Below are positions 38,932 through 44,529 of a stretch of 64,000 nucleotides of DNA, piece by piece; within the stretch, counting starts at the first letter, position 1; every line of letters begins with the position of its first letter. The position numbers and the translations under genes were made by a program. The notes beneath the pieces were generated by a model. It did no database searches and was not told the origin of the DNA. It saw only the letters and a list, made by a program, of their open reading frames with translations. Location of the stretch: contig NZ_JTLD01000004.1 in assembly GCF_000798815.1 (NCBI RefSeq), positions 62,001-126,000 of the forward strand, in the 5' to 3' direction. This stretch comes from Alistipes sp. ZOR0009. GTDB lineage: Bacteria; Bacteroidota; Bacteroidia; Bacteroidales; ZOR0009.

Positions 38932-39366
38932 ATGTTATCCCATATACTAAAATTATCGCTAGCAATAGCTGTTAGCTGGCTATTGCTATCAAGTTGTAGC
39001 AAGGAAGTTCAGCCCTCCAATGTCAATTTGGACGGTACAGAATGGAGGCTCCTAGCGTCAATAAACGCCCTTAATGGAGAGAAAGAGGTAACACCTAATT
39101 CTGAAGGCATCTTTCTAAATTTTCAAAAAGGCTACAGGTACACGTTGAATGCTGGAGAAGAGGCTCTATCAGCACGATACCATCTAGATGAACAAAATAA
39201 GAAGGCTATTTTCTACAGAACAAGCAAAGCTATTCTTAACAGCAAAAAAATTGGCAAAACTTATGAGGCTACGGTTATGGCAAGTAGCATTGAACTTATA
39301 GGTTCAACGCTAAAACTAATCAATGCCAAATCCAATAAATTTTTGGTATTTGAAAGGATTAAATAG
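38932..39366 (+). CDS. small lipoprotein, lipocalin-like
   Basis: 144 residues; lipoprotein signal ending LLLSSC (Cys22). The mature part has the strand pattern and first-strand motif (NVNLDGTEWRLL) of lipocalin-like small Bacteroidota lipoproteins: LNFQKGYRYTL, ARYHLDEQNKKAIFY, and TLKLINAKSNKFLVFERI at the C-terminus. Envelope-located; ligand unknown. Single gene with a strong promoter, upstream of the leucine leader. Confidence 0.75.
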   Translation: MLSHILKLSLAIAVSWLLLSSCSKEVQPSNVNLDGTEWRLLASINALNGEKEVTPNSEGIFLNFQKGYRYTLNAGEEALSARYHLDEQNKKAIFYRTSKAILNSKKIGKTYEATVMASSIELIGSTLKLINAKSNKFLVFERIK

Positions 39367-39511
39367 GAGGGCAATTTGCTCTCCTATTATTTTTGTTATT
39401 TTTAACATTGTTTTAATCCGTCTGCTACAAATCCTCTTCTCCAAAAATAGAAAGAAAGTTTCCCTTCTTTTCCTTTCATTTTTCTACAAAAAATCTCCCT
39501 TTCGATAAAAA

Positions 39512-39541
39512 TTGCAACAAATAACCTTGTTGCTAACTTTC
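39512..39541 (+). promoter_or_regulatory. promoter of the leucine operon
   Basis: TTG at 39512-39514, 19 bp, TAACTTTC at 39534-39541, which fits the Bacteroidota pattern. A transcript would begin near 39548 and leave a leader of about 260 nt before leuA. Confidence 0.5.
39514..39533. promoter_or_regulatory. dyad filling the leu promoter spacer
   Basis: Perfect inverted repeat GCAACAA, six bases, TTGTTGC, occupying exactly the spacer between the -33 and -7 boxes. Placed to act as a repressor operator; the binding protein is unknown. Confidence 0.5.
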
Positions 39542-39611
39542 TTGACTTTACAAAATAATCCATAAGATTGCAGAAAGTGAAATGCTTACCGAAGCATAAA
39601 TATCCACCAAT

Positions 39612-39728
39612 ATGCAATACACGCAGGATTACATTGATATGCCTTTTGATACAAGTACCCCAATACCATATTGGGATATGCTCATCGCGCTTGCCAATAT
39701 CCTCAACCGACGCTTTTTACTGCTCTAG
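39612..39728 (+). CDS. candidate leucine leader peptide
   Basis: 38-codon frame not otherwise called, 70 bp after the -7 box and 77 bp before leuA. Its last 15 residues read LIALANILNRRFLLL: six Leu and two Ile, ending in three consecutive Leu codons directly before the stop. This is the composition expected of a leucine-operon leader peptide whose translation gauges charged tRNA-Leu. A hairpin CCCAAT/ATTGGG (39659-39675) lies within it and ATGCTT/AAGCAT precedes it. The only later hairpin with a T-run is weak (39767-39785). No strong ribosome site is visible, which is usual in this phylum. Coding status is inferred. Confidence 0.5.
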   Translation: MQYTQDYIDMPFDTSTPIPYWDMLIALANILNRRFLLL

Positions 39729-39766
39729 AACCTGCGTTAACCGCCTCCCTTTATGTTCTTTCGAGC

Positions 39767-39787
39767 AAAACTTTCAGCTAGTTTTTT
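39767..39787 (+). terminator. weak attenuator-like hairpin before leuA
   Basis: AAAACT, seven-base loop, AGTTTT and further T. A/T-rich and short, so of doubtful strength, but it is the only terminator-like hairpin between leader peptide and leuA. Confidence 0.3.
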
Positions 39788-39805
39788 AATCTAAATCAGA
39801 ATACC

Positions 39806-41302
39806 ATGAGCAAAGAAAAGGTGTACATCTTTGACACAACGCTACGAGATGGAGAGCAAGTTCCAGGCTGCCAACTTAACACTCTCGAAAAAATTGAAGT
39901 TGCCCAATCGCTAGAACTGCTCGGTGTCGATATCATTGAAGCAGGATTCCCCGTTTCTTCGCCTGGAGACTTTACGTCTGTGGTAGAGATATCGAAAGCA
40001 GTAAACCAACCAACTATTTGCGCCCTTACTCGTGCCGTTGAGAAAGATATTGACGTTGCAGCAGACGCTTTACGCTTTGCCAAGCATCCTCGCATACATA
40101 CTGGAATTGGAGTTTCTCCCCATCATATGAAGTACAAGTTTAATGCAACGCCAGAACAAATAGTTGAAAGGGCTGTTGCTGCTGTCAAGTACGCAAAAAA
40201 GTATGTAGAAGACATCGAATTCTATGCTGAAGATGCAGGGCGTTCAGAAAATCGTTTTTTGGCAAAAGTTATTGAAGCGGTTATTGCAGCAGGAGCAACC
40301 GTTGTTAACATCCCCGACACAACAGGATACTGCTTACCTGATGAGTATGGTGCCAAAATACGTTACCTCAAAGAAAACGTAAAAAATATAGACAAGGCAA
40401 TAATAGCAACCCACTGCCACAACGATTTAGGACTTGCAACGGCTAACTCTATTGCTGGCGTCATTAACGGAGCTCGCCAAATAGAGTGCACCATAAATGG
40501 AATAGGAGAAAGAGCCGGAAATACTTCGTTAGAAGAAGCGGTAATGATTATCAACAGCCACAAAAGGCTTTCGCTAGAAACGTCTATTAACACCAAGCGC
40601 CTTTACCCTACCAGTAGATTGGTTTCTACGCTAATGAGAATGCCCGTACAAGCAAACAAGGCCATTGTTGGACGTAACGCATTTGCTCACTCATCAGGAA
40701 TACATCAAGATGGGGTGCTAAAAAAACGAGAAACCTACGAAATCATGAATCCTAAACAGGTAGGTGTTAACGAATCGTCGATTGTGCTGACTGCAAGAAG
40801 TGGAAGAGCAGCGCTAAAGCATCGGTTAACATCTTTAGGATACAAGTTAGACCAGAAAGAACTCGACGAAGCCTATAAGGAGTTCCTCGACCTAGCTGAT
40901 AAAAAAAGAGAAGTTCATAACGATGACTTAATGGCACTTATGGGCAAAACAGCTAGACATGATCGCAAAATACAGCTCGAATCGCTACAGGTTTTATGCG
41001 GTAAATCGGCTATTCCAACTGCTACCATCCGCTTAAAATACGAGGGACAGACATGGGAAGGAACCGACACTGGTAATGGACCTATTGATGCAGCTATCAA
41101 CGCGGTTAAAACTATTATAACAACCAAAACAACACTCGAAGAGCTGCTTATACATACCATAACACGCGGTAGCGATGATATGGGAAAAGTCCACGTACAG
41201 GTAGAAAGCAAAGGAAAAGTCTTTTACGGCTTTAGTGCTAACACAGATATCATAACGGCAACCATCGAGGCCTATCTGGAGGCTCTTTCGCAAGTTGTAT
41301 AA
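39806..41302 (+). CDS. leuA: 2-isopropylmalate synthase
   Basis: 498 residues, full-length LeuA type 1. Condenses 2-ketoisovalerate with acetyl-CoA, the first committed step to leucine. HMGL-like catalytic barrel: [63 protein letters not shown]-terminal LeuA regulatory domain (near 390-495) for leucine feedback. First gene of leuACDB, downstream of a leader with a candidate leader peptide. Confidence 0.96.
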
Positions 41303-41319
41303 CTCTTAACGAATATCTA

Positions 41320-42720
41320 ATGGGCAAAACACTTTTTGATAAGATCTGGGATGCGCACGTTGTGCATCAAAATACCGATGGAGCAGATATATTGTACATC
41401 GATCGCCATTTTATACACGAAGTAACCTCTCCGCAAGCCTTCGATGGGCTTAAAAAGCGCGGGATTGGCATTTTTAGACCGCAACAAACCGTTGCAACAG
41501 CCGATCATAACGTTCCAACCACCAACCAGCATCTTCCAATTGTAGAAGAACAGTCGCGCAAGCAGGTGACGCAGCTTATACAAAACTGCAACGATTTTGG
41601 ACTGGAACTATACGGGCTTGGTCACCCCTATCAAGGGATTGTACACATAATTGGTCCAGAGTTAGGAATAACCCAACCGGGTAGTACCTACGTTTGTGGC
41701 GATAGCCACACAGCAACGCATGGTGCATTCGGATCTATCGCCTTTGGCATCGGAACCTCTGAGGTTGAAATGGTGTTTGCCTCGCAAACACTTCCACAGG
41801 TTAAGCCTAAAACCATGCGAATTACGGTTAGTGGCACGTTAGAACCTTTTGTTACCGCAAAAGATGTCATTCTATACATCATAAGCAAGCTTAGCGCCAA
41901 AGGTGGCACCGGTTTCTTTGTAGAGTATGCAGGCGAAGCCATTCGTTCCCTTTCTATGGAAGGACGAATGACCATTTGCAACATGAGCATCGAAATGGGA
42001 GCTCGTGGCGGACTTATAGCCCCCGACAAAACAACCTTCGAATACATCAAAAATCGTCCTTTTGCCCCTAAAAATAGCTTATGGGACAAAGCGCAGGCTT
42101 ACTGGGAGACTTTGTACACCGACGAAGACGCCCTGTTCGATGCTGAATACACTTTTGATGCCTCAGAAATTAAACCAATGGTAACCTATGGCACCAATCC
42201 GGGGATGGGCATTGCCATAGATGCTTTAGTACCTTATCAGAGTGATTTTGAAGATGCCAGCGATAAGCTGATGCTCAAAAAAGCGCTAGAGTATATGGAT
42301 TTCCATGAAGGACAATCATTGGAGGGGCTTAAAATATCGCATGTGTTTATTGGCAGCTGCACCAATGGTCGTATAGAAGACTTTAGAGCAGCAGCAAAGC
42401 TTATTAAGGGCAAAAAAGTCTCTTCGGAGGTAACCGCATGGTTTGTACCTGGATCAAAACAGGTAGAGGCAGCCTGCAAAGCCGAAGGAATTACCCAAAT
42501 ATTCGAAGAGGCAGGTATTTACCTCCGTCAACCAGGGTGCTCGGCATGCCTAGCTATGAATGAGGACAAAGTTCCAGCCGGGAAGTACTGCGTGTCGACT
42601 TCGAACCGTAACTTCGAAGGACGGCAGGGGCCTGGAGCCCGCACAATACTGGCTAGTCCGCTTACAGCTGCCGCTGCTGCCATTATGGGAGTTATCACCG
42701 ACCCTCGTAAGCTGGCGTGA
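41320..42720 (+). CDS. leuC: 3-isopropylmalate dehydratase large subunit
   Basis: 466 residues. Aconitase-family subunit that isomerises 2- to 3-isopropylmalate with LeuD. 4Fe-4S ligands in [17 protein letters not shown] (near 343-359) and [13 protein letters not shown] (two Cys near 406-409). N-terminal [10 protein letters not shown] and [14 protein letters not shown] are conserved. Starts 17 bp after leuA. Confidence 0.96.
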
Positions 42721-42883: not shown

Positions 42884-43471
42884 ATGGCAAATGAGAAGAT
42901 AAAACAAATAGTATCGACAGCCGTACCGCTTAACGTGGACAATGTGGATACTGACCAAATTATACCCGCCCGCTTTTTGAAGGCAACCACCCGAGAAGGA
43001 TTTGGTGATAACCTTTTTAGAGACTGGCGCTACGATTCGAATAACGAAAAGGTTACCTCTTTTCCCCTAAACAATCCGCTTTACAGCGGTAAAATTTTAG
43101 TTGCCGGCAAAAATTTCGGCTGCGGATCGAGCCGCGAGCATGCCGCATGGGCTGTAAAAGACTACGGATTTGCAGCGGTAGTTTCCAGCATGTTTGCTGA
43201 CATTTTCAAAAACAATGCGCTCAACACCGCGCTGCTTCCGGTACAGGTAAGCGAACTATTTCTGGACCTGCTATTCAACGCCATCGACAAAAATCCGGCG
43301 ACGGAAATCTCGATAGACCTAGAAAAGCAGCAGATAACCGTAAATGGCGTTTCGGAAACATTCCCCATTTCAGGATATAAGAAGGAATGCCTTATGAATG
43401 GCTACGATGATGTTGATTACCTCATCAGCCTAAAGGAAAAGATTGTTGAATTTGAACAGAAACGTGTATGA
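42884..43471 (+). CDS. leuD: 3-isopropylmalate dehydratase small subunit
   Basis: 195 residues. Swivel-domain partner of LeuC: VDTDQIIPARFLK, GKNFGCGSSREHAAWAVKDY and SSMFADIFKNNALN. The gap to leuC is 163 bp, unusually large for this operon, and holds no gene; a modest inverted repeat (ATGGA/TCCAT arms around 42812-42850) is visible. The stop overlaps the leuB start by 4 bp. Confidence 0.95.
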   Translation: MANEKIKQIVSTAVPLNVDNVDTDQIIPARFLKATTREGFGDNLFRDWRYDSNNEKVTSFPLNNPLYSGKILVAGKNFGCGSSREHAAWAVKDYGFAAVVSSMFADIFKNNALNTALLPVQVSELFLDLLFNAIDKNPATEISIDLEKQQITVNGVSETFPISGYKKECLMNGYDDVDYLISLKEKIVEFEQKRV

Positions 43472-44529
43472 ACACCTACAAAATAGCCGTACTTAAGGGC
43501 GACGGCATTGGACCAGAGATAGTAGACGAAGCCATAAACGTGCTAAACGCGGTTGGACATAAGTACAACATCGAATTCGATTATAATGAGGGACTGGTTG
43601 GTGGAATAGCCATCGACACCGTTGGAGATCCCTTTCCCGCCGAAACGCAGGCCATTTGCGAAGCTTCGGATGCCATTCTTTTCGGTGCGATAGGCGATCC
43701 GAAGTTTGATAATAACCCCAACGCCAAGGTGCGACCCGAGCAGGGCCTTTTGAAGATGCGCAAAACCCTTGGGTTATTCGCAAACATTCGTCCAGTAAAG
43801 GCATACGACAGCTTGCTACAGCTTTCGCCCCTTAAGGAGCAGATCACCAAAGGTTCGAACTTCGTGGTGATACGCGAGCTAACCGGTGGAATCTACTTTG
43901 GAGAGCCTCGCGGACGTAGTGAGAATGGTGAAACAGCCTTCGACACCTGCGTATACACCCGCGAAGAGATTGTGCGCGTTGCCAAAATGGCTTTCGAGTA
44001 CGCCAAAACCCGCAGAAATAAGCTAACGGTGGTAGATAAGGCCAACGTACTGGCCACATCTCGCCTGTGGCGCGAAACCGTTCAATCGATGGAGCAAAAT
44101 TACCCTTCGGTAGAAGTTGACTACATGTTTGTAGACAATGCGGCCATGAAGCTCATACAGCAACCCTCCTATTTCGACGTAGTGCTAACCGAGAATATGT
44201 TTGGAGATATTTTGACCGATGAGGCAAGCGTTATTACAGGCTCGCTCGGCATGCTGCCATCCGCCTCTAAGGGCTCGAAGGTGGCACTTTACGAGCCAAT
44301 ACACGGCAGCTTCCCCCAGGCAAAGGGTAAGGGCATTGCAAACCCCATCGCCACCATCTTGTCGGCCGCCATGATGCTCGAGGATCTTGGCGAGGTGGCT
44401 GCGGCAAAGGCCATCTACCAATCGATAGACAATGTTGTAAACGAGAATTATCTTACTGTTGACCTAAACCCCGTCAATCCCGTTTCGACCGCAGAAGTTG
44501 GACGAAGGATTGTGGAATACATTAAATAG
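43468..44529 (+). CDS. leuB: 3-isopropylmalate dehydrogenase
   Basis: 353 residues. NAD-dependent oxidative decarboxylation of 3-isopropylmalate. Motifs: VLKGDGIGPEIVDEAINVL, LRKTLG-type MRKTLGLFANIRPVK, RELTGGIYFGEPRG, and FGDILTDEASVITGSLGMLP with metal-binding Asp residues. Final gene of the leucine operon, followed by a terminator. Confidence 0.96.
   Translation: MNTYKIAVLKGDGIGPEIVDEAINVLNAVGHKYNIEFDYNEGLVGGIAIDTVGDPFPAETQAICEASDAILFGAIGDPKFDNNPNAKVRPEQGLLKMRKTLGLFANIRPVKAYDSLLQLSPLKEQITKGSNFVVIRELTGGIYFGEPRGRSENGETAFDTCVYTREEIVRVAKMAFEYAKTRRNKLTVVDKANVLATSRLWRETVQSMEQNYPSVEVDYMFVDNAAMKLIQQPSYFDVVLTENMFGDILTDEASVITGSLGMLPSASKGSKVALYEPIHGSFPQAKGKGIANPIATILSAAMMLEDLGEVAAAKAIYQSIDNVVNENYLTVDLNPVNPVSTAEVGRRIVEYIK

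Follow-up and report, generated by a model that had tools for sequence, protein, structure and literature searches.

How might a leader peptide govern a leucine operon when no terminator hairpin stands before the first gene? The question is raised by leuACDB in a 64,000-nucleotide stretch of DNA from Alistipes sp. ZOR0009 (hereafter the window; NCBI RefSeq assembly GCF_000798815.1, contig NZ_JTLD01000004.1, positions 62,001 to 126,000 of the forward strand), where a short open reading frame (ORF) lies between a promoter and leuA. From three genomes, which amount to about two independent lineages because two of them are mutually close, we conclude that this ORF is very likely a real leader peptide, and it probably senses charged tRNA-Leu as its Leu codons are read. 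The best explanation that we can offer, and hold tentatively, is an attenuator of leuACDB that has no intrinsic terminator and would depend on Rho, the RNA being shielded from Rho by slowed or queued ribosomes. The elements concerned are the following, in window coordinates (nt, nucleotides; aa, amino acids):

39542-39570, plus strand: putative promoter, read from the sequence, with a -33-like TTGAC at 39542-39546 and a -7-like TAAGATTG at 39563-39570
39612-39728, plus strand: leader peptide ORF, from the sequence and the ORF list; ATG start, 38 codons, MQYTQDYIDMPFDTSTPIPYWDMLIALANILNRRFLLL, stop TAG
39681-39725, plus strand: control-codon stretch (codons 24-38), with the Leu codons CTC, CTT, CTC, TTA, CTG and CTC according to the codon list
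39694-39753, plus strand: C-rich, G-poor 60 nt (22 C, 7 G), a candidate Rho loading site that takes in the final Leu codons, the stop and the next 25 nt
39767-39785, plus strand: weak hairpin AAAACTTTCAGCTAGTTTT of -1.4 kcal/mol, closer than any other feature here to an intrinsic terminator
39806-41302, plus strand: leuA, for 2-isopropylmalate synthase (498 aa), with which the controlled operon begins; named from family and protein matches

The frame is as the original prediction had described it, with six Leu within its final 15 residues and an end that reads TTT TTA CTG CTC TAG (FLLL-stop). That prediction took it for a peptide that gauges charged tRNA-Leu and proposed a comparison of the leuA upstream regions of relatives, and the comparison speaks in its favour. 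The genomes compared include three of the family, all of one genus: that of the window (L003) and two congeners (L004 and L005). Both congeners carry a Leu-rich ORF at the same place, MQNHQVYIHYFINSILALRVDAAAHLILALLLLLLSNLLLLR in L004 (14/42 Leu) and MQNHQVYIYDSINAIRELRVDAAAHLLLALLLLLLSNLLLLLL in L005 (16/43 Leu), and their 11 and 12 Leu in the last 15 residues were reached in 0 of 2000 shuffles of each genome's own upstream stretch. The three leaders share an MQxxQxYI start, the spacing from the promoter element TTGCA to the leader ATG is 38 nt in all three genomes, and the distance from the leader stop to leuA is 77, 76 and 73 nt in L003, L004 and L005, respectively. By the Leu counts and the shuffles, a short ORF between promoter and first gene thus appears enriched in the codons of its own pathway, as expected of a leader peptide.

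We call the leader real mainly because of the congeners' ORFs, as the Leu content of the window leader alone is modest; for the genus the interpretation as a leader peptide is correct, and for the window genome it is likely. In the window upstream stretch, an ATG frame with six Leu in its last 15 residues arose in 0.6% of 2000 dinucleotide shuffles, the shuffled stretch being 17 nt shorter than the observed one. The two close genomes, L004 and L005, have end branches of 0.002 and 0.022 in the LeuA tree. Codon differences between them lend the frame little favour over the whole ORF (7 synonymous, 8 not), and of the 8 differences inside the Leu run, 5 are third-position changes. Both prefer CTC and CTA, which together supply 10 of 14 Leu codons in L004 (P=0.002) and 13 of 16 in L005 (P=4e-5) as against 510 of 1680 in the window ORFs; the window leader has 3 of 6 (P=0.38). 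An Rfam search at gathering score returned only tRNAs, and no leader RNA family, in the window and 15 loci, while a permissive scan of 39350-39860 gave six matches, all below gathering scores and none overlapping the leader ORF.

A classic GC-rich terminator had been reported missing, and this holds for all three genomes of the genus. No intrinsic terminator was found before leuA in any of the three genomes by the same hairpin function that found one in 12 of 12 cases elsewhere: ilvD, hisG, pheA and trpE are each preceded by a leader and a terminator in all three genomes (-13.9 to -24.6 kcal/mol). Within 150 nt before leuA, the best hairpin flush with a T run has -0.7 kcal/mol in L003 and -1.4 kcal/mol in L004, with none in L005; a looser rule applied to 330 nt gives -1.4 and -3.4 kcal/mol and, again, none. 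The hairpin at 39767-39785 was tried as a terminator and judged not to be one, being weak and not conserved in L004 or L005. The missing leuA terminator is a real departure both from the genus' other attenuators, among which MRLFTLHHHHHYC... (L116), ...AWWWRNKYLLC (L129) and the Phe/Tyr-rich frames before pheA are textbook examples of leaders, and from most leuA leaders of the order.

Some of these other attenuators deserve a remark of their own. Upstream of pheA (L119, L120, L121) there are seemingly two tandem Phe/Tyr-rich leader-plus-terminator units: the first is represented by the end of its frame and a terminator, and the second leader follows with another terminator. The ilvD product has 557 aa in the window genome (L113) and 609 aa in the congeners (L114, L115), and the two differ in their starting sequences and look like different subtypes; a Val/Ile/Leu-rich leader and a terminator precede ilvD in all three despite this apparent difference. 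The leuA leader may not be the only terminator-poor one of the genus, as the bifunctional thrA of the congeners follows a Thr/Ile-rich frame with a hairpin of -12.2 kcal/mol and a short T run in one genome (G001) and with a hairpin that lacks a T run in the other (G002). This frame ends in ...CPTITITITTATTTTL in G002 (L234), and the same frame is present in G001 (L233) without that ATG. A family search for homoserine dehydrogenase found two genes in each congener and one in the window genome (G000), whose bifunctional thrA may be missing or may lie within an assembly gap.

To place the genus within its order, we turned to the leuA upstream regions of other genomes. A LeuA match was present in 114 of 295 genomes, three of them the genus itself; from the remaining 111, two partial genes (G141, G239) and two loci without a usable start (L216, L225) were left out, giving 107, and six duplicate loci were dropped. 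A further 80 named loci (77 with a scan result; L060, L061 and L071 without) entered none of the counts, because several duplicate surveyed genomes (L038 and L007, for example) and others are more distant. A leader was scored at 8 or more Leu/Ile/Val or 6 Leu in 14 residues, and a terminator where a hairpin of -10 kcal/mol or a more stable one lay close to the leader stop or beyond it. Under this automatic rule 55 of the 107 regions have leader and terminator, 12 a leader only and 40 neither, so that 55 of 67 leader-bearing regions possess a hairpin terminator. The figure of 55 is a lower bound because the rule undercounts terminators: by eye, four 'leader only' regions (L019, L172, L178, L197) do have hairpins, in which the T run is poor or absent or the stem is imperfect, and a strong hairpin is present in at least L026, L143, L147, L148, L153, L173, L174 and L211 of the 'neither' class. 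Several others of the 12 resemble chance frames by eye, and in 17 of the 40 regions with neither, a frame open for 90 codons or more has its end no more than 110 nt before leuA, which may there merely follow another gene. Where the order has a leuA leader, then, attenuation by a hairpin is the usual arrangement.

Terminator-less Leu leaders are not strictly confined to this genus, since two loci of a single family (f11), L021 and L232, combine a Leu-rich leader with the lack of a GC-rich terminator. In a LeuA tree of 48 rows the genus stands beside L009 (family f44) with moderate support (93/76), and no leader was found in L009; either the loss of a terminator or the gain of a new leader would fit the genus. 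The leader of L152 (family f59), MQNSQIHILLLSNLLLLTMGHESGCL, resembles those of the genus and shares LLSNLLLL with them. Leaders of this family (L152, L194, L195), MQNSQIHILLLSNLLLL... and MQSNYLLPFLLWTLLLNNL..., have the MQ start seen in the genus and have kept a strong terminator. As a separate observation, the leuA upstream regions of L008, L009 and L030, from three families, have no convincing leader and carry an A/TATAGCATAT motif 61-73 nt before leuA, perhaps the operator of a DNA-binding regulator.

What, then, could end transcription before leuA in the genus? A rho gene is present in all three genomes (TIGR00767 above its cut-off), and near the Leu codons and the leader stop the RNA is rich in C and poor in G, as Rho loading sites are, the best 60 nt holding 22 C and 7 G in L003, 26 and 6 in L004, and 29 and 4 in L005. 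The corresponding C-G excess of 0.25, 0.333 and 0.417 compares with 0.05-0.233 in the 12 other attenuators of the genus. An equal or stronger excess occurs in 9.1%, 0.28% and 0% of 6378 length-matched (232-nt) window stretches and in 3, 1 and 0 of the 107 other leuA upstream regions (L003, L004 and L005 in each case). In the ORF of L005 peptide and codon usage do not account for the whole excess (0 of 2000), nor do they in L004 (P=0.032). A simple rut-like rule (six spaced C and a C/G ratio above 1 within 78 nt) was matched by 5.6%, 0.16% and 0.63% of 1276 stretches for L003, L004 and L005. An earlier control against single 60-nt stretches (0.44%, 0.01% and 0%) flatters the leader and was replaced by the length-matched one, because of which we slightly lowered our confidence in the Rho step.

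In the mechanism that we tentatively propose, ribosomes would run off at the leader stop when leucine is plentiful and leave the C-rich RNA free; Rho would load on it and transcription would end before leuA. When Leu-tRNA is short, ribosomes would slow and queue on the Leu codons and cover the C-rich RNA, Rho would be kept off, and RNA polymerase would read on into leuACDB. A bolder version, which we consider doubtful, is that the Leu codons double as sensor and Rho loading site by way of the CTC/CTA bias and have replaced the hairpin type of the order. If this were true, the coding and the rut function would reside in the same nucleotides, and ribosomes awaiting Leu-tRNA would cover the Rho site directly.

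A number of observations weigh against this proposal, and the case is weakest at the window leader itself. It is the least Leu-rich of the three, with a Leu content (6/38) not significantly above the Leu share of 0.093 in 51 window ORFs (P=0.14). The C excess, strong in L004 and L005, falls short of significance in the window leader by the length-matched control (9.1%); there it is also no greater than the codons imply (P=0.60), and the match to the rut-like rule is the weakest. The control stretches for L004 and L005 were drawn from the window and hence from another genome within the genus. Compared with the rest of the leader, the C-rich RNA is barely more open, and in L005 no more open at all (unpaired probability 0.59, 0.60 and 0.50 against 0.47, 0.50 and 0.49), and L194, a member of the order with an ordinary terminator, also reaches an excess of 0.25. 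Shielding would need queuing or late stalls, since a stall at the first Leu codon leaves the later C-rich RNA bare. Leu codons are, moreover, C-rich by nature. The main weakness is that CTC, the rarest Leu codon in the window ORFs (9.2%), may owe its use solely to being slow, in which case the C-richness could be a by-product. A warning also comes from the actinobacterial LEU element, for which excerpts of PMC1262725 cite evidence that changes to Leu codons were without effect.

The most serious competitor, in our estimate unlikely, is a ribosome-mediated attenuator of the ordinary type, with an intrinsic terminator that has unusually little strength or takes a form that the hairpin rules miss. 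It draws on the hairpin terminators in all 12 examined attenuators of the genus at ilvD, hisG, pheA and trpE, and on the T tracts found downstream in all three leuA leaders; L004 and L005, moreover, have small, mutually similar CACC/GGTG hairpins a few bases before a T5-T6 tract, with two pairs kept by two-sided change. Yet this hairpin is broken in L003, whose T tract lies at a different place, the best candidates under either hairpin rule are as feeble as given above, and a consensus fold of the three sequences shows no conserved pairing (covariation penalty +2.23). A search for mutually exclusive antiterminator and terminator helices found no conserved pair in these three sequences, the only ones available to it. 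Folds 3' of a ribosome placed at the Leu codons or at the stop were rejected as candidates, being small single-sequence hairpins with no agreement across the three. The element is leader-peptide-like, yet neither the intrinsic terminator nor the alternative helices that help to define the classical family were found, and we do not count it among the classical attenuators. The original prediction had suggested translational rather than terminator control. In such control the leader or a stalled ribosome would alter a structure hiding the start of leuA, much as the LEU element of actinobacteria may do. This part of the prediction fared less well than the leader peptide and the missing terminator, and we consider it improbable. 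The unpaired probability of the leuA start region (0.51-0.61) is not low compared with 100 upstream shuffles in any of nine settings, nested folds, to which the search was confined to the exclusion of pseudoknots, show no sequestration of the start, and the minimum-energy fold of 39560-39830 shows no unusual overall structure (z -0.71, 51 of 200 shuffles equally stable). On the other side, synonymous changes are few among the first 12 codons of leuA (3/11, 3/11 and 0/11; stretches equally low make up 2.4%, 2.7% and 3.4% of the rest of the gene), and in local minimum-energy folds of L004 and L005, each a single sequence, early leuA codons pair with the T-tract region. Few synonymous changes at gene starts are common for other reasons. 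By eye, no G-rich site was seen in the 20 nt before leuA in L003-L005. A transcriptional mechanism of the Rho type would, to judge by the three leaders, fit the congeners better than translational control does, and the window leader less clearly so.

The two remaining explanations concern the frame itself. The window leader could be a decaying relic, its promoter setting expression while only the congeners still use the Leu run; its 6 Leu (the congeners have 14 and 16), the lack of a long run and a C excess short of significance give some ground for this. It has nevertheless kept the open frame, the promoter spacing, the N-terminal motif and the terminal Leu triplet, the shuffles seldom produce its Leu cluster, and a short run can suffice, as the four adjacent Leu codons of E. 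coli leuL attest; a relic therefore seems to us just as improbable as translational control. That the frame is open by chance and without function is very improbable indeed and was already disfavoured: the P of 0.14 for the window's Leu content and the balance of synonymous and other differences between L004 and L005 are what one could bring forward for it, against Leu-rich ORFs at the same place in both congeners, never matched in shuffles, and the third-position excess inside their Leu run.

The Rho-dependent leader proposed here resembles several known systems in part. Amino-acid attenuators are textbook examples of hairpin terminators, and leuL is the classical leucine leader attenuator. 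Like enterobacterial leuL and the leuA leaders of the order, the element in the genus is a short ORF rich in control codons that lies between the promoter and leuA and serves the same pathway; most of the order's leaders differ from it in their strong hairpin and T-run terminator. At tnaC of E. coli, stalling of the leader ribosome affects whether Rho acts downstream. Ribosome stalling at toiL, an upstream ORF of E. coli topAI, likewise affects Rho action downstream, according to excerpts of PMC12121999. Stalling at tnaC and toiL differs from that envisaged for the leuA leader in that it comes from free Trp or antibiotics and not from a lack of charged tRNA.

Closer in design is the leader of Salmonella speF, where, in the parts of PMC6386406 that treat it, a short upstream ORF (orf34) contains arginine codons, no intrinsic terminator was found, and incomplete translation of orf34 lets Rho end transcription. 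Amino-acid-specific codons in a short upstream ORF and the missing intrinsic terminator are shared with the leuA leader. Other features set the two apart: speF encodes a polyamine enzyme and has a 516-nt leader in which the arginine codons act via mRNA structure and stability (PMC6386406), whereas the leuA leader is about 230 nt long and serves a biosynthetic operon, with Rho action putative. The LEU element of actinobacteria, as portrayed in excerpts of PMC1262725, places a leader with Leu codons before leuA while other attenuator parts are missing; for comparable cys leaders its authors proposed Rho, and for LEU they favour a protein ligand. In the same excerpts the LEU element has a conserved pseudoknot in which Leu codons pair with the leuA Shine-Dalgarno box, unlike the leader studied here, in which no conserved fold was found.

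Within the phylum, attenuation by leader peptides has been suggested from transcriptomes of Bacteroides thetaiotaomicron (PMC7366714) and Flavobacterium psychrophilum (PMC9723704), neither of which, in the excerpts concerned, describes the design seen here. Our searches of the open-licence literature brought up no Rho-gated leucine leader in Bacteroidota and no study of Rho-gated leaders in this phylum. In one and the same genome four operons keep the hairpin design while leuA has a sensor without the hairpin. If Rho does act at leuA, the genus would let two modes of termination be compared in nature where the type of sensor is the same, and scans based on terminators would miss such leaders.

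The leader frame precedes leuACDB, as predicted, with the genes downstream of leuA running to 44529:

41320-42720, plus strand: leuC, 466 aa, named by recognition of its sequence and by position
42884-43471, plus strand: leuD, 195 aa, named likewise
43468-44529, plus strand: leuB, 353 aa, named likewise

Unlike leuA, these three are presumably what their names say by recognition only. Among the 20 best named relatives of LeuA, 16 carry the label Bacteroidales or that of one of its families or genera.

The promoter at 39542-39570 follows what we take to be the -7/-33 pattern of Bacteroidota; from its position, transcription would start at about 39575 and yield a leader RNA of about 230 nt. A generic sigma-70 scan gave one site where 2.1 were expected. 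Just 5' of this promoter lies a 20-nt inverted repeat, GCAACAAATAACCTTGTTGC (39514-39533), a possible operator or a product of chance, which by eye is not at the corresponding place in L004 or L005. Farther upstream, a strong terminator-like hairpin at 39362-39388, after a small gene at 38932-39366, separates that gene from the leu promoter.
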